From the NCBI RefSeq assembly GCF_003309065.1, contig NZ_POAF01000005.1, forward strand, positions 248,001-312,000: 64,000 nucleotides of DNA, given 5' to 3'. The position numbers were made by a program, and so were the translations under genes. Positions 7,817 through 52,321 of this stretch are shown here, in pieces (position 1 is the stretch's first letter; each line of letters starts with the position of its first letter). The notes beneath the pieces are model-generated. The model ran no database searches. It had not been told where the DNA came from and saw only the letters and a program-made list of their open reading frames with translations. The stretch is from Glutamicibacter soli. Its GTDB lineage: Bacteria > Actinomycetota > Actinomycetes > Actinomycetales > Micrococcaceae.

Positions 7817-7822
7817 AGACAG

Positions 7823-8543: not shown

Positions 8544-8549
8544 GATGCC

Positions 8550-9059
8550 ATGTTCCGGATAATGATCGTGTGCACGGGAAATATATGCCGCTCACCTATG
8601 GCCGAGTACATGCTGAAAAACGCCTTGCGTGAGGCAGACGTCACCGAGGTCGAGGTCTGCTCCCGGGCCATCAGCTACGGCGAAGTCGGCAACGGGATCG
8701 ACCCGCGCGCCGCAAGTGCCCTGCGCGCCCACGGACTGGACGCCTCGAACCACGTCGCAACGCAGGTTAAGGCCGACGAACTGGGTTCCATGGACCTGGT
8801 GCTGGCCATGGACACCGATCATTTCGAAGACCTCGTTCCTGCACTCACGGAGATCGATCCCAGCGAGCGCCCCATGCTGCGCATGTTCAGGTCCTTCGAC
8901 CCCGTCGCCGCCAGCGAGCCGCACGACCGCCAGGGTGTCTACGATCCCTGGTACGGTGACGCAGGAGATTTCCGCGAAACCTGGAAGCTCGTCTCCTCAG
9001 CCCTGCCTGCGCTCGTTGACTACGTCCGGAGTAATATAGCCTCTCGTGGAAACCGCTAG
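8550..9059 (+). CDS. Low-molecular-weight protein tyrosine phosphatase
   Basis: A 169-residue cytoplasmic phosphatase. The catalytic P-loop CTGNICRS lies at residues 8-15, with nucleophile Cys8 and phosphate-binding Arg14. The general-acid loop is DPWYGD near residue 135. The catalytic Cys-x5-Arg fold and the Asp-Pro loop make the family clear. In actinobacteria these enzymes dephosphorylate protein or cell-envelope tyrosine kinase targets; the substrate here is unknown. The reading frame overlaps the start of the next gene by 14 bp, so the two are co-transcribed. The start codon has no Shine-Dalgarno sequence but an upstream -10 at leaderless distance. Confidence 0.92.
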   Translation: MFRIMIVCTGNICRSPMAEYMLKNALREADVTEVEVCSRAISYGEVGNGIDPRAASALRAHGLDASNHVATQVKADELGSMDLVLAMDTDHFEDLVPALTEIDPSERPMLRMFRSFDPVAASEPHDRQGVYDPWYGDAGDFRETWKLVSSALPALVDYVRSNIASRGNR

Positions 9060-11073: not shown

Positions 11074-11629
11074 AAGCACTCAGTGCCCCAGTCGTTCGCC
11101 ACGGCTCGACGGCGGCCATCCTCCGAGCGTGCAATGCGCGCGTGGCTGCTCTGAAAGACCATGACGGCGCTGCCCGCGTCTGAGCATGTTTCCCGGTTCG
11201 GCGCACATCTCTGGTCCATGACGAGCAGCATAGCCCGGACGCCGGCCTCGTAATGACCCGAAATATCGAAAACCACAGGTGGGGAATTCGTCGTGGGCAT
11301 GCTGGCATGAAAAGGTCGACCGCGGTAAGTGCGGCTTCGCTGTCGCCCAGCGAGGCCCTCATGGGGCAGACGACACTTCCCGATCCGCAACGTGCGGTGG
11401 AAACGACGTAACACAAGCACCGTACCTGCATTCAGGGACTGTCGGTGCAACTCTGCTCACGCGGGATGCGGCATCGTGCGGGGAAGCCTGCGCCACAACG
11501 TGAATTCACCTAGCCGGAGCGTGGAAGCAGTGCACGGGAACTTGAAGCATCAGCCGAAGGACCCCCGAAGTTGCTCCCTTTTTTCCAGTGTTTGGAACAG
11601 TCTTCTCCAAATCGTTAGAATTCAAACGC
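11074..11629. other. Gene-poor stretch, no convincing gene
   Basis: About 560 bp with visibly lower G+C than its neighbours and no reading frame resembling a known protein. The best candidate is a 76-codon frame on the minus strand from an ATG at 11300 to 11070, without a ribosome-binding site. It could be the decayed remnant of a lost gene or a long upstream region. No tRNA, IS end or riboswitch is recognisable. Confidence 0.5.
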
Positions 11630-11657
11630 TTGATTTATCCATCCGGGCCAAGATAAT
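11630..11657 (+). promoter_or_regulatory. Promoter of the secreted hydrolase gene
   Basis: TTGATT (11630-11635), a 16-bp spacer and GATAAT (11652-11657) lie about 70 bp before the ATG of the hydrolase. The surroundings are AT-rich. Confidence 0.5.
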
Positions 11658-11724
11658 TCAATAATGGCCAGGTGACCGACCGTCCAAGACGCCATGCAGA
11701 GTACCTACTTGGGAAGGAACTGAC

Positions 11725-13629
11725 ATGACAAACAAACGATGGGGTCGTGCCCTGGGCATGGCGATGGCGGTGGGACTCTCGGCAGGACTGGGCTTAGCCT
11801 CTCCTGCCAATTCAGCACCTCCGCAAACCAGGGAAAATGCCACATTAGGCGCATCTACGATGCAAATGGCTGCGAAGAACACCTACGACCAAACGAGCAA
11901 GGCCGAACGCAAACGTGTCGACGGGATCAAGACACCGCGACCGAAATGGTTCAACTGCAAGGAGCTGGCTTTTGGCGCCCAATGCACGACGGTGAACTTG
12001 CCCTTGGATTATGACAAGCCGCGCGGGGCCACCACCGAGGTCGCGTTGCTGCGTATCAAGGCGACAAACCAGTCGAAGCGCATTGGAACCCTGTTTGTGA
12101 ATCCCGGCGGACCGGGTGGTTCAGGGATTCAGATTGCCGCAGCGGCCCCTGAGTTCCTTTCTCCAAGTGTCCTTGAGCGTTTCGACATCGTCGGGTTTGA
12201 TCCACGCGGCACGAACTTCAGCGACAACGTGCGTTGCTGGAAGAATTTCGGCGCCCAGAGCGAAGCCTTGGAAGCAATGTACGTCCCCTATCCGGTCACA
12301 TCCAAGGAAATACGTGCCTATGTGAATTCCTCCAAGGCCTTCGGCAAGGCTTGCTCCACGACCGGCAAACCCCTCTCCACGTCGATGTCCACCGCGGAGG
12401 TCGCACGTGACATGGATGTCTTGCGTCGCATGGTAGGCGACAAGCAGCTGAGCTACCTGGGTTTCTCTTATGGCAGCTACCTTGGCACTGTCTATGCAAA
12501 CATGTTCCCCGACCGGGTCCGCGCGGTGGCCATCGACGGAGTACTCGATCCGGTGGCCTGGGCCGGAACCTTAGCCAACATGTGGATGCCGCAGACCCAA
12601 CGCATCAAATCAGGCGAAGGCGCCGAAAAGGCCATGCGCGGCATTCTGAGCCGCTGTAAGACCGCCGGTCCGGAGTACTGCATGCTGGCTGAACAAGGGG
12701 ATCCGCAGAAGCTCTATCGCGAGATCATGGCCGAGTTGAAGCGCTCCCCCTTGGTGTTCTCAGATCCCGAGTACCCTGACTTCGACTATTCCGTCACCGC
12801 GGCGATGATGTGGTCGATCCTGCTTGACTACCTGTATGACCCGCAGGGCTCCTCCATGGTGGACTCCGAGCTGACCTATACCTTGCTGGCGCTTCAGGAC
12901 CGTGCCGCGTCGAACGGAACCACGTTCCCGACGTCGGCTGGCAAGGACAAGGCTCCGACCAAGGCCAAGATGAAGGTGGCCCATAAGGCGCTGGCCCAAA
13001 GCCTACGTGCGATCGAGGCCGAGCAAAATGCCGCAGCGAAGGACATCGCCGGCAAGGCCGCAGCCACCGGTTTCGCCTTCCCGTATGAAAATTCCTTCGA
13101 GGCTTTCCAGACCGTGCTGTGCACCGACTCGCGCAACCCGGCCAAGGCCGAAAACTGGGCCCGCTACGCGGAGAACGCAGGCAGGAGCGCTCCGGGATTC
13201 GGTCAGCTGTGGACCTGGAGCTCAGCTCCGTGCGCCAGCACCACTTGGAAGGCCAAGGACGAGGACACCTATAGGGGACCGTTCACCAAACGAACCGTGA
13301 ACCCGATGCTGGTGGTTGGAAACTTCTATGACCCGGCCACGAACTACGCCGGGGCCCAAAAAGTCTCGAAGTTGATGCCCAAGGCCCGGCTTCTGAGCAG
13401 CAACAGTTGGGGCCACACTGCGTACGGCACCTCGAAGTGTGTCACCAATGCCATGGACCGCTACCTGCTCACCGTGCAGTTGCCTGCCACCGGAACGCTC
13501 TGCACCGGAGACGCGCAACCGTTCACCGAAAAACTGGAGGACCTGAACAGCCAACGCCGCAAGGCCGCTCCGGAACGCCAGCTGCCTCCGGTGGTGCCAC
13601 CGCTTCCAGGCGCACTTCCACGAAGTTGA
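11725..13629 (+). CDS. Secreted tripeptidyl-aminopeptidase-like alpha/beta hydrolase
   Basis: A 634-residue serine hydrolase related to Streptomyces SlpD/SlpE/Tap, which remove tripeptides from peptide N-termini outside the cell. An N-terminal Sec signal (basic start, then GMAMAVGLSAGLGLASPANSA) is followed by the oxyanion motif NPGGPGGSG (about 132-140), DIVGFDPRGT, and the nucleophile elbow GFSYGSYLG (Ser near 248). A C-terminal TAP-like domain contains SWGHTAYG, which supplies the catalytic His. It starts with ATG after AAGGAACTGAC. Monocistronic. The exact peptide specificity is not readable from sequence. Confidence 0.9.
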   Translation: MTNKRWGRALGMAMAVGLSAGLGLASPANSAPPQTRENATLGASTMQMAAKNTYDQTSKAERKRVDGIKTPRPKWFNCKELAFGAQCTTVNLPLDYDKPRGATTEVALLRIKATNQSKRIGTLFVNPGGPGGSGIQIAAAAPEFLSPSVLERFDIVGFDPRGTNFSDNVRCWKNFGAQSEALEAMYVPYPVTSKEIRAYVNSSKAFGKACSTTGKPLSTSMSTAEVARDMDVLRRMVGDKQLSYLGFSYGSYLGTVYANMFPDRVRAVAIDGVLDPVAWAGTLANMWMPQTQRIKSGEGAEKAMRGILSRCKTAGPEYCMLAEQGDPQKLYREIMAELKRSPLVFSDPEYPDFDYSVTAAMMWSILLDYLYDPQGSSMVDSELTYTLLALQDRAASNGTTFPTSAGKDKAPTKAKMKVAHKALAQSLRAIEAEQNAAAKDIAGKAAATGFAFPYENSFEAFQTVLCTDSRNPAKAENWARYAENAGRSAPGFGQLWTWSSAPCASTTWKAKDEDTYRGPFTKRTVNPMLVVGNFYDPATNYAGAQKVSKLMPKARLLSSNSWGHTAYGTSKCVTNAMDRYLLTVQLPATGTLCTGDAQPFTEKLEDLNSQRRKAAPERQLPPVVPPLPGALPRS

Positions 13630-13648
13630 GTAGCAAATAGGCCGAAGA

Positions 13649-13690
13649 GTATGGGCGGTGGAACCGGGCTTCCGGTGCTACCGCCCATAC
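13649..13690 (+). terminator. Hairpin after the secreted hydrolase gene
   Basis: GTATGGGCGGT pairs perfectly with ACCGCCCATAC 20 bp away, 20 bp past the stop. No clear T run follows, so it may be a weak terminator or a stabilising stem. Confidence 0.5.
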
Positions 13691-13943
13691 GGTTGTCAAC
13701 CCCGAAATCCTGCTTCGCGCACAGAGCACCGACGCAGTAAGCCAAGGTGGCTCGCCAATGCTTTGGCGTCCGCGATGCCGTCCATGACAGTCACATCTGG
13801 CTTGCTGCATGGATATGGCCAGCGGTAATTTCTGGCAGCCTGCTTGAGGGCCGGCGCGCATCGGGCCATCTCGAAACCCATGCGATGGCCAATCCCATCC
13901 CAGAGCCGATCAAGCGTGTTTGCAGCTCATCACCAATCGCGCT
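13691..13943. other. Intergenic stretch without an assigned gene
   Basis: Contains a minus-strand open frame (13696-13881, 61 codons, ATG without a clear ribosome-binding site) whose product matches nothing I recognise. A second minus-strand frame in another phase overlaps it. It could be a decayed gene. With 13649-13690 and the terminator at 13944, it fills the gap between two convergent genes. Confidence 0.35.
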
Positions 13944-13974
13944 GGAGCCTCCCGCGGTCATCGCGGGAGGCTCC
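13944..13974. terminator. Strong hairpin terminator downstream of cardiolipin synthase
   Basis: A perfect 13-bp stem GGAGCCTCCCGCG/CGCGGGAGGCTCC with loop GTCAT, about 100 bp beyond the cls stop codon in a convergent interval. Confidence 0.7.
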
Positions 13975-14076
13975 TATGGTGAGCCCGGCCAATGGGTGCA
14001 CGAAAGGCGGGCGAGGGAATCAAGGAAAAGACATCCAGCATCCAGAGCGCCCAGGCATGGTGCGCCGGAGCCATTG

Positions 14077-15573
14077 CTATTGCAGCGTGGCGGTCAGACG
14101 TGCCACGTTGTCGATCCAGCGCTGCATGCGCGGACGGCGTCGCCACTGGGCCAGAGTGATCTCCGAGGAGATCTCCAGGTAGTCGTTCTGCACCTTGTTC
14201 ACTGCATCGACCATTTCTTGCCCAAGCAGCATGACCGAGATTTCCATGTTCAGGCTGAACGAGCGCATGTCCATGTTGGAGGATCCGACCACCGCGACCT
14301 CGTTGTCCACGGTGAAGCACTTGGTGTGCAGCACCATCGGCGCCGGGTAGCGGTGGATCCGCACCCCGGCTTCCAGCAGCTGCTGGTAGTAGGACTGCTG
14401 CGCGTGGTGCACCAGGAACTGGTCCCCCTCCTCGCAGACGAACAGGTGCACTTCCACCCCGCGTTGGGCGGCGGTGGTGATGGCGTAGAGCAACGAGTCG
14501 TCCGGCACGAAGTAGGGGCTGGTGATCATCAGCCGTTCGGAGGCGGAATAGATTAGGGTGTTGAACAGGCGCAGGTTGTTCTCCCCGCCGAAACCGGGGC
14601 CGCTGGGCAGCAGCTGGGCCAGCGTGCTGCCGGGCCGGTCGTCGTAGGGCAGCGGGTGCCTGGCCTCGGTGATGTCCATCAGCACCTCTTGGCCGTCATC
14701 CTCCTGCCACCAGTCGGTGGCGAAGGTGACATCCAGGCTGCGCACCAGCGGGCCTTCCACGCGGAGCATCATCTCCACCCATTCGCGCCCCACCTTGTGC
14801 GCGGATTCGCGCTTGTAGCCGGGCTCGATGAGGTTCTGGCTTCCGGTGAACGCGACTTCGCCGTCGACCACCAGGATCTTGCGGTGGTTGCGCAGGTCCG
14901 GGCGGCGCCAGCGGCGGCCGATCAGGTCGATGGGCAGCATCGGGCGCCAGATGATGCCGGAGCTTTTCAGGCGCTTCTTGAAGTTGCGGTAGCCTTTCAC
15001 GCGCAGCGTGCCCAGATGGTCGAAGAGCAGGCGCACATTGACCCCGCGCTGCACGGCCGCTTCCAGGGAATCCAGCACCGGATCCACGTAGTCCGGGTCG
15101 TCGCCCATGATGTAGAACTGGATGTGCACGTAGCGCTTGGCCTTGTCGATCTCCTCGCGCATGGCTTCCAGCGAGCCGCGGTAGTCGGAGAGCACCTGCA
15201 CGGTGTTCCCGCCTTCCAGCGGCATGGCGCCGAGGTTGCGGTTGAGGATGACCGCCGATTCGACCCATTCCTCCGTGGAGTGGAATTCCTCGGGCAGCTG
15301 CATGTGGGCCGTGCCGCGCATGATTTCGTCGTGCGCCCGCTTCTGCTTCTCCAGCCGGCGGCGCGAGAGCCTCGGGTTGGCGAACAGCCAGTAGGCGACC
15401 AGGCCGACCACCGGGAGGAAGAAGATGGCCAGCAGCCAGGCCATGGCCGTGGTGGGGCGCCGGTTTCCGGGGACGATGCCGATCATGAAGTAGCGCACCA
15501 CCAGTTCGGCCGCGACAAGGATGCTCCACACGACGCCGCCGATCTGCAGCATCACTTCGTTACTCGGCCACAT
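14077..15573 (-). CDS. cls: Cardiolipin synthase (phospholipase D superfamily)
   Basis: Membrane enzyme that joins phosphatidylglycerol units (or PG and another phospholipid) to make cardiolipin. The 498-residue length is typical. An N-terminal PLDc_N region has two hydrophobic segments (about 8-30 and 42-64). Two catalytic HKD motifs follow: HRKILVVD (230-237) in NHRKILVVDGEVAFTGSQN, and HTKCFTVD in HTKCFTVDNEVAVVGSSNMD near 415-435. Both have the full His-x-Lys-x4-Asp set. The ATG has a strong GAGGGGGTG site upstream. It is divergent from pabC. Single gene with a downstream hairpin. Confidence 0.95.
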   Translation of the reverse strand: MWPSNEVMLQIGGVVWSILVAAELVVRYFMIGIVPGNRRPTTAMAWLLAIFFLPVVGLVAYWLFANPRLSRRRLEKQKRAHDEIMRGTAHMQLPEEFHSTEEWVESAVILNRNLGAMPLEGGNTVQVLSDYRGSLEAMREEIDKAKRYVHIQFYIMGDDPDYVDPVLDSLEAAVQRGVNVRLLFDHLGTLRVKGYRNFKKRLKSSGIIWRPMLPIDLIGRRWRRPDLRNHRKILVVDGEVAFTGSQNLIEPGYKRESAHKVGREWVEMMLRVEGPLVRSLDVTFATDWWQEDDGQEVLMDITEARHPLPYDDRPGSTLAQLLPSGPGFGGENNLRLFNTLIYSASERLMITSPYFVPDDSLLYAITTAAQRGVEVHLFVCEEGDQFLVHHAQQSYYQQLLEAGVRIHRYPAPMVLHTKCFTVDNEVAVVGSSNMDMRSFSLNMEISVMLLGQEMVDAVNKVQNDYLEISSEITLAQWRRRPRMQRWIDNVARLTATLQ

Positions 15574-15752
15574 CGCGGCACCCCCTCACGTCAGCGCCCG
15601 TGGGCGTCTGCGGCGTGTGCGCCGCATCCCGCAGTTAGAGAAGCGGGAAAAACATCTTTGCCTAGCCTATCGAATCCCCTGCCTCTTCTCGGAATGCAGT
15701 CCAAGAAGAGCCTCCGCAGGGGCTTCGCGCGCGGACTTGGCGGGAAATTCGA

Positions 15753-15758
15753 TAACCT
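15753..15758 (+). promoter_or_regulatory. -10 element of pabC at leaderless distance
   Basis: TAACCT, six bases (TGGAGA), then ATG. The six bases also resemble a Shine-Dalgarno sequence, so a short-leader transcript is an alternative. Confidence 0.45.
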
Positions 15759-15764
15759 TGGAGA

Positions 15765-16640
15765 ATGAGTTCTCTTGTATTCCTCGATCCGGCCTATCCC
15801 GCCGGACGCCTTGCCGACATCAACGCGCCCCAGCTCCCGGTCACCTTGCAGGGCGTGAACCGCGGCGACGGGGTCTTCGAGTCGATGCTGTACACCCAGC
15901 AGGCAGTCCGCAAGATCGAGGCACACCTGGCTCGCCTGGCGGTCTCCGCCGAGGCCTCCGACCTGCCGATCCCGGACGAGCGCAGCTGGCGTGCAGCGGT
16001 CGACACCGCTGTCGCCGACTTCGACGCCACCGGCGGCGCCGAGGAAGCAGTAGTCAAGCTGGTGGCCATGCGCGGCGAACTGGACCAGGACCCGGCCGTG
16101 TGCTGGGTGACCGTCACCCCCGCCCCGCGCGTGGGCATGGAGCAGCGGGAAACCGGCGTGGATGTGCTCTTCCTGGACCGCGGCTACGATTCGAAGCTCG
16201 CCGAACGCGCACCGTGGCTGCTGATGGGCGCCAAGACCCTGTCCTACGCGGTGAACATGGCGGCGCTGCGCTACGCCCGCAAGCACGGCGCCCACGAGGT
16301 CATCTTCACCTCCGCCGACGGCGTGGTGCTCGAAGCACCCACCGCCACCGTGCTGCTGGCCCAACGCGACGGAGAAACCCGCCGCCTGCTGACCCCGATG
16401 CTGGAAACCGGTATCCTGCCCGGCACCACCCAGAGCGCCATCTTCGACGCCGCGCAGCAGGACGGCTGGGAGCTGGGCTACGGCCCGCTGCGCCCGGAGG
16501 ACCTGTACCAGGCCGACGGCGTGTGGCTGGTGTCCTCGGTCCGCCTGCTCACCCCGGTGCGCACCCTGGATGCCAAGCCGATCCGGATGGACGCCGAGCT
16601 GCACGAACAGCTGTCCGCCCTGGCCGATTCGATCCGCTAG
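15765..16640 (+). CDS. pabC: Aminodeoxychorismate lyase / class IV aminotransferase
   Basis: A 291-residue PLP enzyme of fold type IV. ADC lyase releases pyruvate from aminodeoxychorismate to give p-aminobenzoate for folate. The PLP lysine lies in GAKTLSYAVNMAALRYA (Lys near 159). GADEVIF-like and DGVVLEAPTATVLL regions follow, and a phosphate-contacting TGILPGTTQSAIF stands near 210-222. A D-amino acid or branched-chain aminotransferase is the main alternative within this fold. The pabB-type fusion 4.7 kb upstream on the same strand favours PabC. It converges with the ECF operon. Confidence 0.8.
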   Translation: MSSLVFLDPAYPAGRLADINAPQLPVTLQGVNRGDGVFESMLYTQQAVRKIEAHLARLAVSAEASDLPIPDERSWRAAVDTAVADFDATGGAEEAVVKLVAMRGELDQDPAVCWVTVTPAPRVGMEQRETGVDVLFLDRGYDSKLAERAPWLLMGAKTLSYAVNMAALRYARKHGAHEVIFTSADGVVLEAPTATVLLAQRDGETRRLLTPMLETGILPGTTQSAIFDAAQQDGWELGYGPLRPEDLYQADGVWLVSSVRLLTPVRTLDAKPIRMDAELHEQLSALADSIR

Positions 16641-16646
16641 CCCCGG

Positions 16647-18971
16647 CTACCAGATCAGGTTGTAGGTCCCGGCCCAGATGGCGGCCGCGATGGCCGCGGC
16701 GCCCAGCAGGACGCCGGCGGCCAGCACCGCACCGTCGCGCCGGGTGAAGGTGGCGGTGCGGATCCAGGTGCGCTGCCCGGTGCCGAAGCCCTTGGCCTCC
16801 ATGGTCGTGGCCAGGCGCCCGGCCCGGCGGATCGCCTGCACCAGCAGCGCCAGTAGCTGGCCGAGCTTCGCACCCACGCGCTGGCGCACGGTGCCCAGGT
16901 TGCCGATGCCGCGGGCCCGCCGCGCCAGGGTCAGCGTGGTGAATTCCTCCACCATCAAGCCCAGCAGGCGCATGCCCGCCAAGGCACCGAGCACAAAACG
17001 GTGCGGCACCTTCAGCTGCTGGGACAGCGCGCCGCCCAGGTCGCTGGGGTTCGTGGTGGACAGCAGCAGCACCATCGGCACCGCCATGGCCAATGCGCGC
17101 AGCCCCGTGGCGACGCCTCCGGCCACCGAGCCCTCGGTGATGTCGAAGATCCCCAGATCCAGCAGCACCCGTCCCGAATCCTGGCCCACCAGGGCGATGC
17201 CCCAGGCCGCCAGGACGCCGGCCGCCAGCAGCGGCCAGCCGCGGCGGAAGAACCCGCCGATGCCCAGCCCCGCCAGCGGCAGCATCAGCAGCGTGGCCGC
17301 GATGACCACCGCCGCCGAAACCCAGTCCACCGTGCTGATCAGCGGCATGGTGGCCCCGGCGATCGCGCCGAACTTGGCCAGCGGATTGATCTTCGCCAGC
17401 CAGCTGTCCCCCACCGGGGCGTCCAGCATCGGCCCCGACGAGGTCCTCGTGGCGGCCACCTCGGCCGGCGCCAGCACCAGCTCGTCGGCCCCCAGCGCCG
17501 CGGCGAAATGCTCGTCATGGGTCACCGCGATGATCGCGGTGGATTCGGCAAGCTCCTCGATGAGCAGTTGCGCCAGCTCGCGCCAAGTGTTCGCGTCCTG
17601 CCCGAAGGTCGGCTCGTCAAGGATCACCACGTCGGGCGAGGCGGCCAGCACTGTGGCCACCGACAACCGGCGCTTCTCCCCTCCGGAAAGCGTGAACGGG
17701 TTGGCTTCGGCCAAGTCCTGCAGGCCAAGCCGCTCCAGCAACTCCTGCACCCGGACCTCGACCTGCCGCGGATCGTACTTCTGCTCCTCGGCCGCGCCGT
17801 GTCTGGCGCGCAGCGGCGCGAACGCCAGCTCCTCGCGCACGGACTGGGTGACGAACTGGTGCTCGGGTTCCTGGAACACCGAGCCGATGCGGGCGACCAG
17901 CGCTCCGGCCTTCCAGCTGAACGGCGAGGGCGGCAACCCGTCGGCCAGCTGGGGGCTGGCGGCGAACTGGCCTGACACAGGTTCCAGCAGCCCGCCCAGG
18001 GTCAGTGCCAGCGTGGACTTCCCTGCCCCGTTCTCCCCGCGGATCACCAGGGCCCTGCCGCCGGTGACCTCGAAGCTGGCCGGGGCGGTGCGCACAGCAT
18101 GCTCGCCCCGCGCGCAAACCAGCTCCTCGGCGTGCAGCATCGGGGCGCCGCCGGCCCTCGGCGCCGGCGAGGTCTGCGGAACATAGCCCGGAATCCAGAC
18201 CCCTGCCTGCGCCAATTCGGCGCGCACCGCCGCGTCCCCGGCCAGCGCCTCGGGCTGCAGGTCGTGGGCGATCCCCCCGCCGGGGGCCAGCACCAGCACC
18301 CGATCCACCTGCCGGGCCCACGCCTCCAGCCGGTGCTCCACCACGATCAGCGTCGCCCCGGTGGACTCCACGGCGCCGATCACCGCATCGCGCAGCGGCG
18401 GGATGCTGCCCGGGTCGATATTCGCGGTCGGCTCGTCAAGCAGCATCAGCCCGGGGCGCATGGCCAGGATCCCGGCCAGGGCCAGGCGCTGCTTCTGCCC
18501 GCCGGACAGTTCCTGCGTGCGATGTTCGTAGCCCAGTGCGCCGAGCCCCACGGCGTCAAGCGCCTGCGGGATCCGCTCGCGGATCTCCTGCGGGTCGACG
18601 CCCAGGTTCTCGGCGCCGAAGGCGACGTCGTCACCCACCCGGCTCTGCACCACCTGGGTTTCCGGATCCTGCTGCATCAGGCCCACCGGGAAGCTGCACG
18701 CGAACGCATCCTGCCCGCCGACCAGCAGCTCGCCGGTGGGACCGGCGTCCTGGTCGACTTCGAGCACGCCGGCCAGCGCATGCAGGAAGGTGGATTTGCC
18801 GGCCCCCGACGGGCCCAGCAGGAGCACCTTCTGACCTGCAGGGATCTGCACGTCAAGTCCGGCGATGGCCGGGCGGTCGCGCTCGGCATGCTGCCAGGTG
18901 AAGCCGCGCGCGCTGATCTCCACACCCTGCCGGGTCAGCGGGGCCGTACGCCCGTTGGCGGCGGCGCTCAT
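16647..18971 (-). CDS. Fused ECF transporter ATPase-ATPase-T component (YkoD-YkoC type)
   Basis: A 774-residue protein carrying both ATPases and the membrane coupling subunit of an energy-coupling-factor importer. ATPase 1: Walker A GPSGAGKST (about 52-60), LSGGQKQR, LLDEPT. ATPase 2: GENGAGKST (about 320), LSGGEKRR, ILDEPT. From about residue 530 a T component follows with four to five membrane segments and the coupling motifs ARRARG and EAKGFG. The reading frame stays open to 19415, but that part is a shadow of the S-component gene. The ATG at 18971 overlaps the upstream stop as ATGA. Together with YkoE it would import thiamine or hydroxymethylpyrimidine. Confidence 0.9.
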   Translation of the reverse strand: MSAAANGRTAPLTRQGVEISARGFTWQHAERDRPAIAGLDVQIPAGQKVLLLGPSGAGKSTFLHALAGVLEVDQDAGPTGELLVGGQDAFACSFPVGLMQQDPETQVVQSRVGDDVAFGAENLGVDPQEIRERIPQALDAVGLGALGYEHRTQELSGGQKQRLALAGILAMRPGLMLLDEPTANIDPGSIPPLRDAVIGAVESTGATLIVVEHRLEAWARQVDRVLVLAPGGGIAHDLQPEALAGDAAVRAELAQAGVWIPGYVPQTSPAPRAGGAPMLHAEELVCARGEHAVRTAPASFEVTGGRALVIRGENGAGKSTLALTLGGLLEPVSGQFAASPQLADGLPPSPFSWKAGALVARIGSVFQEPEHQFVTQSVREELAFAPLRARHGAAEEQKYDPRQVEVRVQELLERLGLQDLAEANPFTLSGGEKRRLSVATVLAASPDVVILDEPTFGQDANTWRELAQLLIEELAESTAIIAVTHDEHFAAALGADELVLAPAEVAATRTSSGPMLDAPVGDSWLAKINPLAKFGAIAGATMPLISTVDWVSAAVVIAATLLMLPLAGLGIGGFFRRGWPLLAAGVLAAWGIALVGQDSGRVLLDLGIFDITEGSVAGGVATGLRALAMAVPMVLLLSTTNPSDLGGALSQQLKVPHRFVLGALAGMRLLGLMVEEFTTLTLARRARGIGNLGTVRQRVGAKLGQLLALLVQAIRRAGRLATTMEAKGFGTGQRTWIRTATFTRRDGAVLAAGVLLGAAAIAAAIWAGTYNLIW

Positions 18972-19588
18972 TTGCGCACCGCAAGCGCCGGTTCCAGGTG
19001 CGCGCGGCGGCTGGCGAGGTTGCTCAGCGCGCCGGTGCGGGCCAGCGCCCGGGTAATCCACCAGGACAGCAGGCCGGCGACGACCAGGCCAGACACGGCG
19101 GTGGCTCCCACGTGGAACAGCTTCATGGACTCGGTGTATTCGGCCACGCTGCCCACGACGTAGGCTTCGCTGAGGCCGGCAAACAGGCCCGAGCCCAGGC
19201 CTGCAAGCAACGCCACCGGCAGGTTCCAGCGGCGGTAGCGGAACAGCGCGAACACCAGCTCGGCGCCCAGGCCCTGAACCAGGCCGGAAATCAGCACCGG
19301 CATGCCCCAGTGCGTGCCCAGCAGCGCCTCGACCACGGCGGCCAGCACCTCGCAGAACAGTGCGGCGCCGGGCTTGCGGATGATCAGCGCGCCGAGCACC
19401 GCCGGGAACAGCCACAGGCCGGTAAGCAGGGCAGTGCCGGGTGGGAAGGCGGTGAAAGCCAGCGAGAACAGGCCGTAGCTCGCGGACCAGGCCCAGAAGA
19501 CCACGCCGGAAGCGACGGCGATGACCGAGGCGATGACGATGTCGACTACGCGCCAGGTGCTGCGCTGCGTCGTGCGGGTTGTGCTCAT
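18968..19588 (-). CDS. ykoE: YkoE-type ECF substrate-binding (S) component for thiamine/HMP
   Basis: A 206-residue integral membrane protein with about five to six hydrophobic segments: VVDIVIASVIAVASGVVFWAW, GLFSLAFTAFPPGTALLTGLWLFPAVLGALIIRKPGAALFCEV and YVVGSVAEYTESMKLFHVGA. The pattern fits YkoE, the S subunit that captures thiamine or its HMP moiety. A TPP riboswitch stands in its leader and the energising subunits follow with a 4-bp overlap. The ATG lies 7 bases from an AGGAGG site that is itself in a hairpin. Expression should fall when thiamine pyrophosphate is abundant. Confidence 0.9.
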   Translation of the reverse strand: MSTTRTTQRSTWRVVDIVIASVIAVASGVVFWAWSASYGLFSLAFTAFPPGTALLTGLWLFPAVLGALIIRKPGAALFCEVLAAVVEALLGTHWGMPVLISGLVQGLGAELVFALFRYRRWNLPVALLAGLGSGLFAGLSEAYVVGSVAEYTESMKLFHVGATAVSGLVVAGLLSWWITRALARTGALSNLASRRAHLEPALAVRK

Positions 19589-19595
19589 GAGGTGT

Positions 19596-19612
19596 CCTCC
19601 TTGATCAGGAGG
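19596..19612 (-). promoter_or_regulatory. Shine-Dalgarno-sequestering hairpin of ykoE
   Basis: On the minus strand CCTCCT, a five-base loop (GATCA) and AGGAGG form a perfect 6-bp stem that buries the ykoE ribosome-binding site. It is the likely expression platform of the upstream TPP aptamer, acting on translation initiation. A second stem, GGCGCT/AGCGCC (19631-19646), lies between them and could act as a switch element. Confidence 0.6.
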
Positions 19613-19665
19613 GGAGATGAACGGAATCGGGGCGCTGTCCAGCGCCGGTCCGCATCCGAGATGCT

Positions 19666-19766
19666 CGACTTCCTTCGCCGGTACTAACCGGAGCAGGTTC
19701 GAGGGTCTGCGATCTATCGCACTCTCAGCGCCTTTTGCCGCGAACGGCTTGACGCTCCCCTGTCGG
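19666..19766 (-). ncRNA. TPP riboswitch (THI element)
   Basis: Reading the minus strand, the conserved TPP aptamer blocks appear in order. They are GGGGAGC (about 19760-19754), the pyrimidine-binding GCTGAGAG, then ACCCTCGAACCTG, CCGGTTAGTACCGGCG and AAGGAAG. A closing CGAC/GTCG helix lies at the ends. The element sits about 80 bases before ykoE and should lower expression of the thiamine ECF operon when TPP binds. Confidence 0.95.
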
Positions 19767-19845
19767 AATAATTACTGCCCACCCACCATACCGCAGGTAA
19801 GCTGGCAACGGAACGATAAGTCACAACGTTGAACGTGAGGTCCAC

Positions 19846-20097
19846 ATGAACGCAGTACAAAAGCTCATCGTAACCGGCATTTCCCTGGGCGCAGGCTTCC
19901 TCGGCAGCAAGCTGGTCGATCAGGTCTGGAAGGGTTTCACCGGCAACACCGCCCCGCGCAAGGGCAGCGAGGAAGCCGCCGAGGCTTCCATGCGCCAGGC
20001 GCTGGGCTTCGCCGTGTTCTCCGCCGTGGTCGCAGCGGTCATCCAGGTGCTGGCTGATCGCGGCACCACCAAGGCCATCGCCAAGTTCACCAAGTAG
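19846..20097 (+). CDS. DUF4235 small membrane protein
   Basis: An 83-residue protein with two hydrophobic stretches: KLIVTGISLGAGFLGSKLVDQVWKGFTG (about 6-33) and ALGFAVFSAVVAAVIQVLADRG (about 52-73). A charged linker, PRKGSEEAAEASMR, joins them. This is the actinobacterial DUF4235 pattern of two transmembrane segments around a WK-x-TG motif. Function unknown. It starts with ATG after GTGAGGTCCAC and is divergent from the riboswitch leader. Confidence 0.8.
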   Translation: MNAVQKLIVTGISLGAGFLGSKLVDQVWKGFTGNTAPRKGSEEAAEASMRQALGFAVFSAVVAAVIQVLADRGTTKAIAKFTK

Positions 20098-47401: not shown

Positions 47402-47986
47402 TTATTTGGTGTTGCGCATGAACTTGACCAGTACGGCGATGACGCCGCCCAGCACCACGACGCCAGCAATGATCCAGACGACCGGGTTCATCCCGGCGCC
47501 CAGGTCCTGCACCGGCTGGACCGGCTGTACGGTGGGCTGATCCGCGCTCGGCGACGCTGGAGCGCTTTCCGAAACGGTTGCGCTCGGCACGGCAGAGGCA
47601 GGTGCGTCGACGGTGAAGTTGATGGAGTCCTCCACCGGGTGCCCATCGGAGGAGATCACCCGCACGGCCAGGGTGTATTCGCCGGAGGCAAGCTCGGCGT
47701 CCGGCACCACGGTGACGGTGGTGCCCTTGGTGCTGGCGGTGGTCGCGACCTTCTTGCCCGCTTGGCTCAAGGCGACGACGGTCGAGTCGGTGCCCGAGAG
47801 CTGCTGCAGTTCCGCGGAGAAGGTCATCGTGATCTCCTTCGGCGAGCTCTTCACGCTAGCGCCGTTCTCCGGGCTGGAGCCGGTGAGGAAGTCGTGGGCG
47901 TTGGCCGCCCCGACGGTTCCCAAGGCCGCCAGCAGTGCGACCGCCGCGCCGGCGATCAGTCGGGAGATGTTGTTACGCAGTTTCAC
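47402..47986 (-). CDS. CopC-domain copper resistance protein, membrane anchored
   Basis: A 194-residue exported protein. The signal ends ...GTVGAANA, after which the first mature residue is the copper-ligand His in AHDFLTGSSPENGASVKSSPKEITMTFS. A second His lies in SSDGHPVEDSINF near 118. A Ser/Pro-rich linker precedes a C-terminal membrane helix (NPVVWIIAGVVVLGGVIAVLVKFM). CopC proteins bind Cu(II) outside the membrane and hand it to CopD. The GTG start follows GGAAGGACCACT; the ORF is open much further but is non-coding there. Confidence 0.9.
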   Translation of the reverse strand: MKLRNNISRLIAGAAVALLAALGTVGAANAHDFLTGSSPENGASVKSSPKEITMTFSAELQQLSGTDSTVVALSQAGKKVATTASTKGTTVTVVPDAELASGEYTLAVRVISSDGHPVEDSINFTVDAPASAVPSATVSESAPASPSADQPTVQPVQPVQDLGAGMNPVVWIIAGVVVLGGVIAVLVKFMRNTK

Positions 47987-48036
47987 AGTGGTCCTTCCAG
48001 GTCCCCGGGGTCCGGGGGAGTACGTATTGATGGGGT

Positions 48037-48645
48037 TCAGGCGCTCAATACGAAGGAAGGCGGTCCGCGCCGTTCGGGCAACCTGCCCAGCTGCGCAAGC
48101 TTGAGTTGGAAACGCAGCGGGTAGTAGCCGGGAATCGGGCGCAGTTCCGGGACCGGAATGCGGATCAAGGACAGGAGCAGTCGGGCAGATCCCAGGGTAA
48201 GCACCCCGCGCAGCGGAACGAGCAACCGCTCGGCGCCGTTCAGCACGAGGATGCTGGTTGCGGCGGCCAGCACGTGGGCGTAGAGCATCGATTCGCTCTG
48301 CACCTGGGCGTATTGTTCGACGATCTGGCCCGAGAGATCCACGGGACCGTGATGGGCCGCGTGTTCCATTGCGGCCAGCGGCCCGGTCTCGCCATGGCTC
48401 ATCACCGACAGCGACAAGTGGAACAGCCCTTGGCTGAGCATAACCACCAGGCTGGTGGCCCACAGCGAGAATTTGCGTCCCAGCATGGCCATGGCGATCA
48501 CGGCCGAGACGCAGGTGATCAGCAGCATTACCATCAGCGACATCTTGGTCGGTGCCTGGTGCGCGTGGGCGGCGAACGCGGTCCAGGTGCACACTGAAGC
48601 CGCGAGCCAACCGCGCACAACGCGGATCGCTGGGTTCTTGGGCAC
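48037..48645 (-). CDS. Histidine-rich membrane protein of the copper group, unknown family
   Basis: A 202-residue protein with about four hydrophobic segments: WLAASVCTWTAFAAHA, SLMVMLLITCVSAVIAMAML, SLWATSLVVMLSQGLFHLSLSVM and YAHVLAAATSILVLNGAERLLV. The loop SHGETGPLAAMEHAAHHGPVDL between segments is rich in His and Met and could bind metal. I do not recognise the family. The GTG at 48645 is the first possible start downstream of the promoter at 48686-48714; the frame's earlier Met codons lie inside the HU terminator. First gene of the group. Confidence 0.6.
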   Translation of the reverse strand: MPKNPAIRVVRGWLAASVCTWTAFAAHAHQAPTKMSLMVMLLITCVSAVIAMAMLGRKFSLWATSLVVMLSQGLFHLSLSVMSHGETGPLAAMEHAAHHGPVDLSGQIVEQYAQVQSESMLYAHVLAAATSILVLNGAERLLVPLRGVLTLGSARLLLSLIRIPVPELRPIPGYYPLRFQLKLAQLGRLPERRGPPSFVLSA

Positions 48646-48685
48646 GTGGTTCAGCCGTTCGTCGACGGGTAGGTGATCACCGCTG

Positions 48686-48714
48686 ATTCTACGCGAAGTA
48701 GAAGATTGCCTCAA
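48686..48714 (-). promoter_or_regulatory. Promoter of the copper group with an overlapping inverted repeat
   Basis: On the minus strand TTGAGG (48709-48714), a 17-bp spacer and TAGAAT (48686-48691). The perfect inverted repeat TTCTAC-N5-GTAGAA (48687-48703) covers the -10 and part of the spacer, as an operator would. CTAC/GTAG half-sites recall BlaI/CopY-type repressors, but the regulator is unknown. Confidence 0.6.
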
Positions 48715-48730
48715 AGTCCGGGGCATGCCA

Positions 48731-48768
48731 AAGGCCCGGGTCCGCGACATCGCGTGGAACCGGGCCTT
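48731..48768 (-). terminator. Terminator of HU copy 1
   Basis: AAGGCCCGG pairs with CCGGGCCTT, continued by TCCGCG/CGCGTGGA-type pairing with one mismatch. It lies about 20 bp past the HU stop and upstream of the copper promoter. Confidence 0.7.
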
Positions 48769-48786
48769 CAGGAAAGCTTGCGGTGC

Positions 48787-49071
48787 TTACTTCTTGGCGA
48801 CAGCGGCCTTCAGCTTCGAACCAGCGGTCAGCTTCACCGAGTGGCCGGCAGGAATCTCGATGGCTTCGCCGGTCTGCGGGTTGCGGCCGGTGCGAGCTGC
48901 ACGGTCGGTGCGCTCCACTGCCAGCCAGCCTGGGATCGAAACCTTCTCGCCCTGCGAGATCTGCTCAACGAAAACGTCGAAAACAGCATCCAGAACACCG
49001 TTGACGGCAACCTGGGAGTTTTCGGTCTTCGCTGCAACAGCGGCAACAAGTTCGCTACGGTTCATAGCCAA
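48787..49071 (-). CDS. hup: HU-family DNA-binding protein, copy 1
   Basis: A 94-residue nucleoid protein that binds and bends DNA as a dimer. The sequence is complete: NRSELVAAVA at the start, GWLAVERTDRAARTGRNPQTGEAIEIPAG (the beta-arm region, about 48-76) and KLTAGSKLKAAVAKK at the end. It lacks the long Lys-rich tail of mycobacterial HupB. The start is a TTG, because GGAGG lies 7 bases upstream of it but 13 from the next ATG, and the resulting N-terminus fits the family. Its protein is identical to copy 2. The stop is TAA here, TAG in copy 2. Confidence 0.95.
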   Translation of the reverse strand: MAMNRSELVAAVAAKTENSQVAVNGVLDAVFDVFVEQISQGEKVSIPGWLAVERTDRAARTGRNPQTGEAIEIPAGHSVKLTAGSKLKAAVAKK

Positions 49072-49146
49072 TGTATGTCCTCCTGGACTAGTGGTCCAAG
49101 GCCCGGTTCAGACCTCGAACGCCGCGCGGTCGCACGGACTTATCAG
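48788..49146. repeat. Direct repeat, copy 1 (HU gene and upstream region)
   Basis: These 359 bp are identical, base for base by eye, to 49345-49703. The repeat covers the HU coding region except its last stop base, the ribosome-binding site and about 75 bp upstream. Identity fades after TATCAG. Confidence 0.95.
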
Positions 49147-49281
49147 TCAAGAACATACCAAACCTGAGGGAGAGAAACGCCCGAAAACAGCGTATTCTCC
49201 GGGATTTTTTCAGCTATTGCCCATTTTTTGGGCCCAAAGGCGGCAATTCTTGACCCGAACGGCGTTAAAACGCTTAACGAA

Positions 49282-49324
49282 GCCGCCCGCCGGGCCGAAG
49301 CGGAGCTTCGTTCCGGCGGGCGGC
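49282..49324 (-). terminator. Terminator of HU copy 2
   Basis: GCCGCCCGCCGG pairs perfectly with CCGGCGGGCGGC around an inner GAAGC/GCTTC stem. It lies 20 bp past the copy-2 stop, between the two HU genes. Confidence 0.75.
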
Positions 49325-49343
49325 TGCGGGAAGGATCGGGGTA

Positions 49344-49628
49344 CTACTTCTTGGCGACAGCGGCCTTCAGCTTCGAACCAGCGGTCAGCTTCACCGAGTG
49401 GCCGGCAGGAATCTCGATGGCTTCGCCGGTCTGCGGGTTGCGGCCGGTGCGAGCTGCACGGTCGGTGCGCTCCACTGCCAGCCAGCCTGGGATCGAAACC
49501 TTCTCGCCCTGCGAGATCTGCTCAACGAAAACGTCGAAAACAGCATCCAGAACACCGTTGACGGCAACCTGGGAGTTTTCGGTCTTCGCTGCAACAGCGG
49601 CAACAAGTTCGCTACGGTTCATAGCCAA
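49344..49628 (-). CDS. hup: HU-family DNA-binding protein, copy 2
   Basis: A second 94-residue HU gene, identical in protein and in DNA to copy 1 over the whole coding region apart from the stop codon (TAG). The ribosome-binding site and TTG start are shared. Upstream of 49703 the sequence differs from copy 1, so the two copies may be expressed differently. Separate terminators follow each copy. Whether both are needed for HU dosage, or one is a recent duplicate, is not clear from sequence. Confidence 0.95.
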   Translation of the reverse strand: MAMNRSELVAAVAAKTENSQVAVNGVLDAVFDVFVEQISQGEKVSIPGWLAVERTDRAARTGRNPQTGEAIEIPAGHSVKLTAGSKLKAAVAKK

Positions 49629-49703
49629 TGTATGTCCTCCTGGACTAGTGGTCCAAGGCCCGGTTCAGACCTCGAACGCCGCGCGGTCGCACGGACTTAT
49701 CAG
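49345..49703. repeat. Direct repeat, copy 2 (HU gene and upstream region)
   Basis: Second copy of the 359-bp repeat, offset by 557 bp from 48788-49146. The 198 bp between the copies contain the copy-2 terminator and no gene. Confidence 0.95.
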
Positions 49704-49797
49704 AGATGAACTTACCAGCAATAACCGTCAATTCCTGCATCAATCCGCGGATTGCATGGAGTTTCTCCTGCCATTCGAGGTGTGAAAGTTCACGAAA

Positions 49798-50799
49798 TCA
49801 GCCGTGTGCGAACGGGTCGAATCCGTCGTTAGCCGCCGTGAACAGTTGCCAGGCGCGCTGCTGCAGTTGCTTGCTGCGGGTGCTCTTTGCGGGGCTGGCC
49901 AGTGTAATCGGGCCCTTCGAGACGTATTTGGGCCCCAAGTACACGCCGGTCGGTGCGGAGCCGAGGTCCGGGTTCAGCGCCGCCTCGACGATGGCGACCG
50001 CGCCTTCGTGTTTGCCCTGCGCGAAACCGGCCTGCAGCTGCCCCTGCAGGCGTTTGGCGTAGCCGGGCTCGTTGACGCCGGCGATCTGCGGAGTCAGCCC
50101 GGACACCGAATAACCTGGGTGCACGGTGATGGAGCGTGCCGGCCAGGACAGCTGGCGCAGGCGCCGGTCCAGAGCCAAGCCGAACCCCTGCAGCACGGCC
50201 TTGGACTGCGCATAGGCCCGGTAGGGGTGGTAGTCCTGCTCGAGTTTCAGGTTCTGCAGGTCGGCCTGCAGCATCAGGGTGGACATCGAGCCCAGCGCGA
50301 TGAAGCGCAGCGGGTGGGACGCGAAAGTTGCGGCGAGCTCCCCCACGAGCCGCGCATGGCCGAGCACGTTGGTCGTCATCACCTGCTCGTAGCCGAGCAG
50401 CCCGGGCTGGCGCGTGCGCGGGGTGTGGATGATGCCGGCGTTGGCGACCAGCACGTCGATGGTGCGGCCGCGCAGTTCGGCGGCCAGACCCACCGCGGAG
50501 GCCATGGAGTCCGCGTCGAACTGCATGAATTCGAGTTGCGCCTGCGGCACGCGTCGGCGGATCTGCGCGGCGGCGTGTTCGGCCCGCGCCTGGTTGCGGC
50601 AGGCCATGAGCACGGTGGCCCCGCTCTCGGCCAGGGCCAGCGCGGTGAAGAAGCCCAGCCCGGCGTTGGCCCCGGTGACTACCGCGGTCCTGCCTCGGCC
50701 CAGGCCGGCCCAGCGGCCGCGGTTTGCATGGACGTCGCCCAGCGGTTGCGTGTACTGGGGTGCTGAATGTCTACCGGTGGCTTGCTGCATGGCTTCCAC
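49798..50799 (-). CDS. SDR-family NAD(P)-dependent oxidoreductase
   Basis: A 333-residue short-chain dehydrogenase/reductase. An N-terminal extension of about 35 residues precedes the coenzyme motif TGANAGLG (about 42-49). VANAGI and a Tyr-x3-Lys active site in YRAYAQSK (about 193-200) follow, with the catalytic Ser in ALGSMS. It is closest to the retinol-dehydrogenase/WWOX-like SDRs (ACRNQARAEHAAAQIR after the coenzyme fold). The substrate is unknown. GTG at 50799 or the ATG nine bases later (50790) could be the start. It is divergent from the DUF1992 gene. Confidence 0.88.
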   Translation of the reverse strand: MEAMQQATGRHSAPQYTQPLGDVHANRGRWAGLGRGRTAVVTGANAGLGFFTALALAESGATVLMACRNQARAEHAAAQIRRRVPQAQLEFMQFDADSMASAVGLAAELRGRTIDVLVANAGIIHTPRTRQPGLLGYEQVMTTNVLGHARLVGELAATFASHPLRFIALGSMSTLMLQADLQNLKLEQDYHPYRAYAQSKAVLQGFGLALDRRLRQLSWPARSITVHPGYSVSGLTPQIAGVNEPGYAKRLQGQLQAGFAQGKHEGAVAIVEAALNPDLGSAPTGVYLGPKYVSKGPITLASPAKSTRSKQLQQRAWQLFTAANDGFDPFAHG

Positions 50800-50924
50800 G
50801 CTACTATGCGCCCGCTGCGGGTTCCGGAAGGCTCGGGCCGGTTCGGCTGTGAATACGCCATGCCCGCCCGCACGGCGCAGGGGTCATCCTTGAACACGCG
50901 GTGGCACGGTGGGAAAATAGAGCC

Positions 50925-51536
50925 ATGGGTGCCCCGAAACCTGACGAGAATGCGGCACTGAACGCCGCCCGTTACAAGTTGAGCCAATCGGCTGGCGAAC
51001 AGTTGCCGGTGGACGAATACGCCGAGGCCACCGGCATGGCCCCGGTGGACAAGGCTCCGAGCACTCCCCTGCAGTTCTACGCCGAGGACGAGGCCTGGGA
51101 GGTCGCGAACTCCGTGCTGGACGAGGCCTTTGCTCGCGGCGACTTCGACAACCTCGCCTTGGCGGGAAAGAATATCGACCACATCACCAACACCACCGAT
51201 CCGGACTGGTGGCTGAAGTCGATGATGCACCGCGAGAAGATCTCCGGTCTCGGCCCGCCGGCGCTGACGCTACGAGTGGAGGACGAGCATATGGACCAGA
51301 CGCTGGACCAGCTGCCTACCGAGGCGGCGGTGCGCGAACATATCGAGGACTTCAACCAGCGTGTTATCGAGGCCCGGCGCCAGCTGCTGGGCGGCCCTCC
51401 GGTGATCACCGCCCTGCGCGATGCCACCGCCGAGGTCCTTGCCTGGCAGCAGCGACGTCGCGCCGCCGCCCCGGCCCATGAGGAACAGCCCGACCAGGCC
51501 ACGCGCCGCTGGTGGCAACGCAGGAAGCGGGCTTAA
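50925..51536 (+). CDS. DUF1992 (DnaJC28-like) protein
   Basis: A 203-residue soluble protein. The DUF1992 region appears as WEVANSVLDEAFARGDFDNLALAGKNID (about 52-79), then DPDWWLKSMMHREKISGLGPPALTLR. The N-terminus contains YKLSQSAGEQLPVDEYAEATGM. Family function is unknown; eukaryotic relatives carry a J-domain, which is absent here. Its ATG has GAAAAT six bases upstream, in the same position as other leaderless genes in the window, and no ribosome-binding site. A bidirectional terminator separates it from the ribosomal protein operon. Confidence 0.8.
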   Translation: MGAPKPDENAALNAARYKLSQSAGEQLPVDEYAEATGMAPVDKAPSTPLQFYAEDEAWEVANSVLDEAFARGDFDNLALAGKNIDHITNTTDPDWWLKSMMHREKISGLGPPALTLRVEDEHMDQTLDQLPTEAAVREHIEDFNQRVIEARRQLLGGPPVITALRDATAEVLAWQQRRRAAAPAHEEQPDQATRRWWQRRKRA

Positions 51537-51596: not shown

Positions 51597-51902
51597 TTAC
51601 CAGGAAGACTTGGTGATGCCCGGGAGCTCACCACGGTGTGCCATGTCGCGGAAGCGAACACGGGAGATACCGAACTTCTGGAAGGTACCGCGTGGGCGGC
51701 CGTCAATGGCGTCGCGGTTGCGAACGCGCACTGGGGAAGCGTTGCGTGGCAGCTTCTGCAGGCCAACGCGGGCTGCTTCGCGAGCCTCGTCGGTGGCGTT
51801 TGGATCGATCAGGGTCTTCTTCAGTTCGAGGCGCTTTTCAGCGTAACGCTCGACGATGACCTTGCGCTGTTCGTTCTTTGCGATCTTGGACTTCTTGGCC
51901 AT
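51597..51902 (-). CDS. rpsN: 30S ribosomal protein S14, zinc-free form
   Basis: A 101-residue S14 of the long, cysteine-free type. It contains [13 protein letters not shown] at the start, [50 protein letters not shown] in the conserved C-terminal half, and no CXXC zinc ribbon. It binds 16S rRNA in the small-subunit head. Last gene of an L28-L33-S14 operon; in many actinobacteria such cysteine-free sets are induced at low zinc, but I see no Zur box here. Confidence 0.96.
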
Positions 51903-51905
51903 GTC

Positions 51906-52076
51906 TTAGCGCTCCTCTCGGAATTCTACGTGCTTGCGGACTACCGGGTCGTACTTCTTCAGAACCATGCGGTCTGGGTCGTTACGACGGTTCTTACGGG
52001 TTACGTAAGTGAAACCGGTGCCGGCGGTGGACTTCAGCTTGATGATCGGACGTACGTCCTTATCCTTCTTTGCCAT
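51906..52076 (-). CDS. rpmG: 50S ribosomal protein L33, zinc-free form
   Basis: A 56-residue protein read directly from the minus strand. It begins [19 protein letters not shown], continues with [25 protein letters not shown] and ends HVEFREER. It is the L33 fold without the usual two CXXC pairs. The ATG lies 2 bp from the rpmB stop codon and the gene ends 3 bp from rpsN, so the three are one transcript. Confidence 0.95.
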
Positions 52077-52078
52077 TT

Positions 52079-52315
52079 TTAGAGCTTCACACCCTTCGCA
52101 ATCAGGTCTGCAACAACAGCGTCGATACCGCGGGCATCGATGACCTTGATGCCCTTGACCGACAGGGTCAGGGTCACCTTACGGCGCAGCGAAGGCACGT
52201 AGTAGGTCTTCTTCTGGATGTTCGGATCGAAACGACGCTTGTTGCGACGGTGCGAGTGGGAGATGCTATGTCCGAAGGCCGGAGTAGTACCGGTTACCTG
52301 GCAAACAGCTGCCAT
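52079..52315 (-). CDS. rpmB: 50S ribosomal protein L28
   Basis: A 78-residue large-subunit protein: [33 protein letters not shown] at the start, then [24 protein letters not shown]. It has only one Cys, so it lacks the zinc-binding pairs of C+ L28 proteins. The ATG at 52315 follows GAGGAGTGATC and is preferred to the ATG two codons earlier. First gene of the operon. Confidence 0.95.
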
Positions 52316-52321
52316 GATCAC

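Follow-up and report, generated by a model that had tools for sequence, protein, structure and literature searches.

A tandem pair of HU genes in Glutamicibacter whose copies seem to be kept matched by DNA exchange within each genome

Introduction

Bacterial paralogs usually diverge or get lost. Where two genes for the chromatin protein HU are kept, they may be kept as different proteins, as with the diverged paralogs HU alpha and HU beta of Escherichia coli and with HupA and HupS, the two HU genes found in one Streptomyces genome. Direct repeats of 359 bp only 198 bp apart, the arrangement described below, would moreover be expected to delete easily. A different fate of prokaryotic duplicates is set out by Wang and Chen (2018, PMC6053082), whose Tables 1 and 2 hold 26 genes under long-lasting concerted evolution, tuf, amoCAB, psbA and fla among them, and who name recurrent gene conversion as the cause of paralogs matching within a genome. 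One row of their Table 2 is given to the archaeal histone genes of Methanococcales, which are counted there among the homopolymer-forming proteins (PMC6053082). Here we set beside these systems a tandem HU pair from Glutamicibacter soli, found in what we call the window, the whole 64,000-nt stretch of DNA that was analysed, and followed through the genus and the family.

Results

Two HU genes with identical leaders and coding sequences

The features of the locus are collected in Table 1. By direct base comparison the two identical tracts agreed over 359 bp without a mismatch, ribosome-binding site and 75 bp upstream included, exactly as the first-pass annotation had claimed, and the bases that border them were unlike at either end (T at 48787 and C at 49344; T at 49147 and A at 49704). 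The same arrangement emerged from a repeat search, in which a 300-nt reference copy within the tract was matched at 100% with a spacing of 557; the two HU starts thus lie 557 bp apart and the repeats are separated by 198 bp. Both open reading frames translate into the same 94-residue protein, and their coding sequences (CDSs) were unlike solely in the third stop-codon base, the upstream copy ending in TAG and the downstream one in TAA, the lone difference that had been reported. When copy B was compared with the Pfam profile Bac_DNA_binding (PF00216), it scored 93.7 bits (E 8.1e-27; curated cut-off 22.4), and its residues 3-91 aligned with positions 1-89 of the 90 in the profile, the full HU domain. 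In the window's genome, a 25-contig draft, copies A and B share one contig and were the only HU matches at E 0.001.

Upstream of the pair stands a gene that we take, from the appearance of its sequence, to encode an SDR. Ribosomal protein genes follow on the same side at 51597-52321, presumably those for S14 and apparently L28, and on the downstream side of the pair are genes that look like copper/iron-uptake genes, all of these being our naming by eye from the translations.

Table 1. Coordinates of the HU pair and its surroundings in the window (all on the minus strand)
Feature	Position	Strand	Description
SDR-like gene	49798..50799	-	synteny anchor, upstream of the HU pair
Inferred -10 hexamer, promoter A	49709..49714	-	TAAGTT, TGG before; by eye
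Leader A	49629..49703	-	hairpin H1, hairpin H2 (12-bp stem), GTCCAGGAGGAC Shine-Dalgarno box; covariance match G000:C21:297617-297700
HU copy A	49344..49628	-	first in sense direction; 94 aa, TTG start, TAG stop
Identical tract, copy A	49345..49703	-	75-nt leader and CDS minus last stop base
Inverted repeat behind copy A	49273..49333	-	possible terminator; repeat search, 83% complementary
Inferred -10 hexamer, promoter B	49152..49157	-	TATGTT, TGG before; by eye
Leader B	49072..49146	-	same as leader A in sequence; covariance match G000:C21:297060-297143
HU copy B	48787..49071	-	second in sense direction; 94 aa, TTG start, TAA stop
Identical tract, copy B	48788..49146	-	75-nt leader and CDS to second stop base
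Inverted repeat behind copy B	48731..48768	-	possible terminator; repeat search, 88% complementary

Promoters and tract ends

At the place of the inferred -10 hexamer of promoter A, 13 aligned A rows carried TGGTAAGTT; at that of promoter B, 13 aligned B rows carried TATGTT and the single-copy genomes G003 and G005 carried TAGGTT. Neither inferred element was detected by a scan with the sigma-70 consensus. In the window the identical tract starts 5 nt past the hexamer of each promoter, a distance that would place its start near the expected start of transcription, and the transcribed leader and gene would then be alike and the promoters unlike. Exact identity in the 13 resolved pairs of the genus, described below, reached 5 to 80 nt upstream and 0 to 29 nt downstream. 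The claim that each copy has a terminator of its own held in so far as each is followed by its own inverted repeat; a terminator scan reported neither of the two. Ten Kocuria loci (L076, L078, L079, L081, L087, L091, L094, L098, L099 and L107) offered a separate observation, in that their HU promoter apparently lies right at the end of the preceding S14 gene, whose stop codon, TAA or TAG, falls by eye within a -10-like TGGTAATTT or TGGTAGTTT.

Distribution in the genus and the family

The first-pass annotation had proposed a comparison of copy number in related genomes, and each of the 18 Glutamicibacter genomes that we compared gave an HU match. The tandem pair was intact in 13, with a start-to-start spacing of 557 to 573 bp; two (G003 and G005) had a single HU gene inside a long contig; and in three, all drafts, a contig breaks inside HU. 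The leader of G008 lies 11 bases from the end of contig C12, and contig C13 consists of the last 20 HU codons followed by a whole HU gene; in G009 the leader runs up to the edge of contig C14, and contig C9 opens with the final 21 codons of HU; and in G017 a contig begins with a truncated HU, after which comes a whole one. Near-identical repeats would be expected to cause such breaks in short-read assemblies, so that the resolved pairs may understate the identity, and 16 of the 18 genomes bear the pair if the three are counted.

Outside the genus a second copy was exceptional. A family search over 295 genomes at E 1e-10, to which the genus supplies 18, found one HU match in 274 of the other 277; there was none in G086 and G136, also at E 0.01, and there were four in G036, which belongs to another Micrococcaceae genus. 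Positions 1-20000 of the 32.8-kb contig C7 of G036 (locus L139) consist of a unit of about 10 kb, HU included, repeated head to tail, and the repeated parts align at 99.5% identity, with 1 mismatch and 39 gap openings. This is most likely an assembly fault that inflates the HU copy number, and for that reason G036 was left out as a true multicopy genome. Among the best 80 of 491 HU loci from named genomes, seven had a second HU nearby, and all seven were from Glutamicibacter, as judged by a match to the compared genomes or by sequence.

The order SDR gene, HU (one copy or two), ORF48037 was the same at all 15 genus loci that span both sides, and the three loci at contig ends had the ORF48037 side; farther out from HU the gene order varied. 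A DUF gene that elsewhere adjoins the SDR gene was missing from its place in G004, G013, G014, G015 and G016 (loci L114, L123, L124, L125 and L126, at which the stretch reaches that place).

Coding parts follow the genome and flanks follow position

Statistics within genomes were drawn from the 13 resolved pairs (G003, G005, G008, G009 and G017 have none). Mean CDS identity was 98.1% within a genome, compared with 92.4% between genomes for A copies and 92.4% for B copies. The upstream flank (-140 to -86) showed the opposite order, with 58% identity within a genome and 73% (A-A) or 82% (B-B) between genomes, in agreement with the earlier claim that the upstream flanks diverge, and the downstream segment from +30 to +110 did likewise (0.59 within, 0.68 A-A and 0.71 B-B). 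Leaders were intermediate, at 91% within a genome and 85-88% between genomes (0.85 and 0.88), those of G002, G010 and G012 being 78-79% alike within the genome. For the first 25 bases past the stop, identity was highest within a genome (0.70, against 0.41 A-A and 0.47 B-B), which implies that the matched tracts often extend beyond the stop codon, as they do not in the window.

Individual pairs varied widely. Their CDSs differed at 0, 0, 0, 0, 0, 1, 1, 4, 7, 9, 15, 16 and 18 of 285 sites, the pairs with one difference being those of the window's genome (G000) and G016; between genomes the differences numbered 2-35 of 285. With 15-18 differing sites in G007, G012 and G015, homogenisation is neither complete nor constant. 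It is weak in G006, G007 and G015, the A copies of G007 and G015 clustering apart from their B copies, and in several weakly matched pairs the same-position copy of the sister genome was closer than the copy's own partner. Paralogs were closer within a genome, synonymous sites included, on average and not in every pair, which is the mark of concerted evolution that we looked for. Some relatives' pairs are thus partly diverged, by up to 18 of 285 CDS sites; a case of diverged hup genes in relatives, with the identity arising from misassembly, is nevertheless not what we found, since the pair in the one-contig genome G004 is identical.

One genome may preserve the end of a conversion tract. G002 (G. 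ardleyensis) and G012 (Arthrobacter sp. MYb213) are sisters in a tree of neighbouring proteins; of 285 sites, 2 separate their A copies and 13 separate their B copies. Up to column 271 the B copy of G002 equals the A copy of that genome, and so over columns 32-98 it has the A-type states from which B of G012 departs; at columns 272-284 it has 3' states common only to G012 B. The next relative, G010, matches G012 B at several of the 5' sites. The simplest reading of these site patterns is that B was converted by A in the G002 lineage and that the conversion ended before column 272.

A structured leader upstream of HU

Leader extents rest on the inferred transcription start. Folded piecewise, the 30 genus leaders formed hairpin H1, then hairpin H2 (8-12 pairs, very variable in sequence), and then GTCCAGGAGGAC with the Shine-Dalgarno (SD) sequence. 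Their alignment, A2, has 26 rows, 24 of them distinct; omitted were G016 and the second rows of G000 and G004, whose leaders duplicate a row that was kept, and G009, whose leader is cut by the contig end. Standard pairs filled 96.0% of 547 cells, as opposed to 34.5-45.7% with slid partners, a control biased in favour of the leader structure because the structure was derived from the same sequences; none of 500 shuffles scored as high. The covariation score was 0.248 (0.025-0.122 with slid partners). Both sides had changed at 5 of the 12 H2 pairs (9 cells) and at no pair of H1 or the SD hairpin, and the control slid by -1 also had 5 double-changed pairs, with 11 cells against the native 9. Structure has been kept here as sequence changed, the behaviour sought in a cis-regulatory RNA leader.

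Exchange of H2 arms among 35 distinct leaders raised the mean energy from -13.6 to -10.3 kcal/mol, and among the 22 segments from Glutamicibacter only from -13.9 to -11.5 kcal/mol; in each case 0 of 200 exchanges matched the native value (L036 and L038 were excluded from the H2 energy and swap tests). Against base shuffles, z was -2 or lower for 31 of the 35 distinct H2 segments, the exceptions being G003S, G014B, L047 and L049. Ten leaders were also folded together with promoter-side bases, and several of these were not unusually stable (z of 0.03 for G002A, -0.78 for G003, -0.39 for L039, -1.34 for L048 and -1.42 for L036). When the segment from -75 to +45 was folded, H1 was rearranged at lowest energy in a number of the genus leaders, among them G002A, G002B, G006A, G006B, G010A and G012A. 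The SD hairpin had a mean probability of 0.92 over 46 sequences in this fold, with low values for L048 (0.01), L050 (0.32) and G006B (0.46), and the SD bases were on average 65% unpaired, so that the hairpin exposes the SD to about the same degree as it conceals it.

Among the 80 family loci that were the best of the 491 HU loci, the full GTCCAGGAGGAC box was present in 75 and TCCAGGAGGA in 79. A covariance model of the leader matched 65 of 100 family genomes at E 0.01, counted per genome and not by HU position; in the window's genome it matched the two HU leaders only, and G027 and G073 each had a second match that lay away from HU. At E 0.1 it matched all 69 family loci outside the genus (71 matches in total), although the SD box and the gene start belong to the model and are part of what is matched beyond the close genera. 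Rfam 15 had no family over either leader at E up to 5 in positions 47500-51000 of the window, where the sole match listed was mir-4900 at 47701-47737, below its gathering score.

We considered whether GTCCAGGAGGAC is a general Shine-Dalgarno motif: it occurs four times in the window's genome, twice at HU, and the reversed pattern occurs twice. One occurrence away from HU (L136) also precedes an ATG, and in view of such occurrences the box is not wholly specific to HU. Order-wide, GTCCAGGAGGAC followed by TGGC was found in 79 of 297 genomes, counted anywhere in the genome, and the bases after the box vary. A conserved upstream open reading frame in the leader was rejected, the GTG...TAG frame of the window changing its length in G001 (by eye).

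Discussion

We favour one old tandem duplication of HU in Glutamicibacter, after which recurrent recombination within genomes would have kept matching the copies to each other as the promoters and the spacer diverged by position; we put the probability of this reading at roughly 0.86. Judged by comparative sequence analysis, DNA exchange inside each genome seems to go on correcting the HU copies to match.

The account that fares best among the others is that HU was duplicated separately in individual lineages. Tandem repeats turn over easily, and such duplications would likewise leave the copies clustering genome by genome. For the tandem fla genes, this kind of origin is brought up by Wang and Chen (PMC6053082). 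We regard it as decidedly unlikely for HU: it predicts like flanks or fresh junctions, whereas A-type and B-type flanks are each alike across 13 genomes, the pair-bearing genomes form one clade, and the shared spacer and flanks point to a single junction. The clade comes from a tree of the two neighbouring proteins (plain LG model), which was rooted on four loci outside the genus, three from Paeniglutamicibacter and one from Arthrobacter sp. AQ5-05, and from which G009 was left out as too short. It united the 15 included pair-bearing genomes (98/99) and placed G003 and G005 outside, with a program warning that the long branch of G003 meets the outgroup. Because the single HU genes of G003 and G005 have, by eye, a B-type upstream flank, B looks ancestral; a deletion by crossing-over would leave promoter A, which argues that these two lineages never had the pair.

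Purifying selection, acting through codon bias or RNA structure, might instead hold the copies alike without any exchange. HU is usually highly expressed, and the leader structure is conserved, as this explanation would have it. We find it highly improbable all the same, given that the 30 genus copies are variable at 70 of the 285 CDS columns, that the most alike pairs share their own genome's states in both copies, and that sites variable between genomes change together within a genome. It also sits badly with the AU test, which rejected a tree with all A copies as one clade (p-AU 2.7e-5; 285-bp CDS, six sets of identical rows left free); in the CDS tree itself, 3 of 21 inner branches were well supported, the CDS being short at 285 bp.

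The first-pass annotation had put forward either a very recent duplication or gene conversion still under way. The second is supported; the first, set in the window's strain or species, fits the 359 identical bases and the lack of any change in the gene, synonymous or other, except in the stop codon, but is scarcely tenable when the same pair, in the same place and with the same two promoter types, occurs in 13 of 18 genomes of the genus and the upstream flanks of the copies are on average only 58% alike. With its place and its position-specific promoters common to the genus, the pair is, on these comparisons, old; the duplication predates the species compared and the pair is syntenic among them, as is asked of a case of concerted evolution. 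A duplicated or mis-joined assembly, which a 25-contig draft and the resemblance of the G036 repetition to such a fault might suggest, can practically be dismissed, as had been judged from the window, for the flanks and stops are distinct and the same pair, in the same 557-bp layout, is present in the one-contig genomes G004, G007 and G015.

On the reading that we favour, a single duplication with recurrent exchange, a lone ancestral hup gene with a B-type promoter would have been duplicated in tandem once, after the lineages of G003 and G005 split off. Recombination between the repeats, presumably involving RecA, would then repeatedly have overwritten one copy with the other inside individual genomes, with gene conversion, or unequal exchange via a transient triplication, as candidate routes. 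In the window the tract would take in the leader and CDS, its upstream edge lying close to the inferred start of transcription; in other genomes it would end as far as 29 bases beyond the stop codon, or include just a portion of leader or CDS. Outside it lie both promoters and the spacer, which would have diverged, each being conserved by position. Deletion by crossing-over would remove the spacer together with the end of A and promoter B, and as the spacer is kept in all 13 resolved pairs, any lineages in which it was deleted presumably failed to persist. The pair may be kept because it supplies one HU protein from two differently driven transcription units, and the benefit would be more HU, a raised dosage, or HU under two controls, in either case without mismatched dimers.

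The HU leader may be an undescribed regulatory leader. A broader proposal is speculative, and we hold it to be rather doubtful: that the Micrococcaceae leader, with H1, H2 and the SD hairpin, acts as a cis-regulatory RNA of an undescribed kind, which HU itself may read, that leader plus gene form the unit of conversion, and that the two promoters feed a jointly autoregulated HU pool. If it were true, the pair would be a two-promoter dosage device and not mere redundancy. The leader offers a separate lead on how HU synthesis is set.

Both HU copies and the spacer have persisted through most of the genus while the coding parts have, it appears, been matched to each other again and again. The 13 resolved pairs, at varied stages of homogenisation, make up a compact natural system for measuring bacterial conversion tracts, and they make it possible to test why two transcription units should be needed for a chromatin protein. 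A literature search by title and abstract opening had no homogenised HU genes among the matches listed; its coverage of subscription journals was small and absence is unproven. We rate the pair as an addition to the already known concerted evolution of prokaryotic duplicates.

Compared with E. coli HU alpha and beta and with Streptomyces HupA and HupS, which are also two HU genes, the Glutamicibacter genes differ in being alike and adjacent. As with the genes treated by Wang and Chen, the HU paralogs are nearer to each other within a genome than to their syntenic orthologs, synonymous sites too; HU, or hup, is absent from the 26 genes of Tables 1 and 2 of that paper (PMC6053082). Set against the cases in those tables, this one is a tandem pair, one genus deep, whose homogenised unit in some genomes includes the mRNA leader and whose promoters differ. 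It parallels the archaeal histone genes of Methanococcales in Table 2 (PMC6053082): both encode chromatin proteins under concerted evolution, in unrelated protein families and different domains of life.
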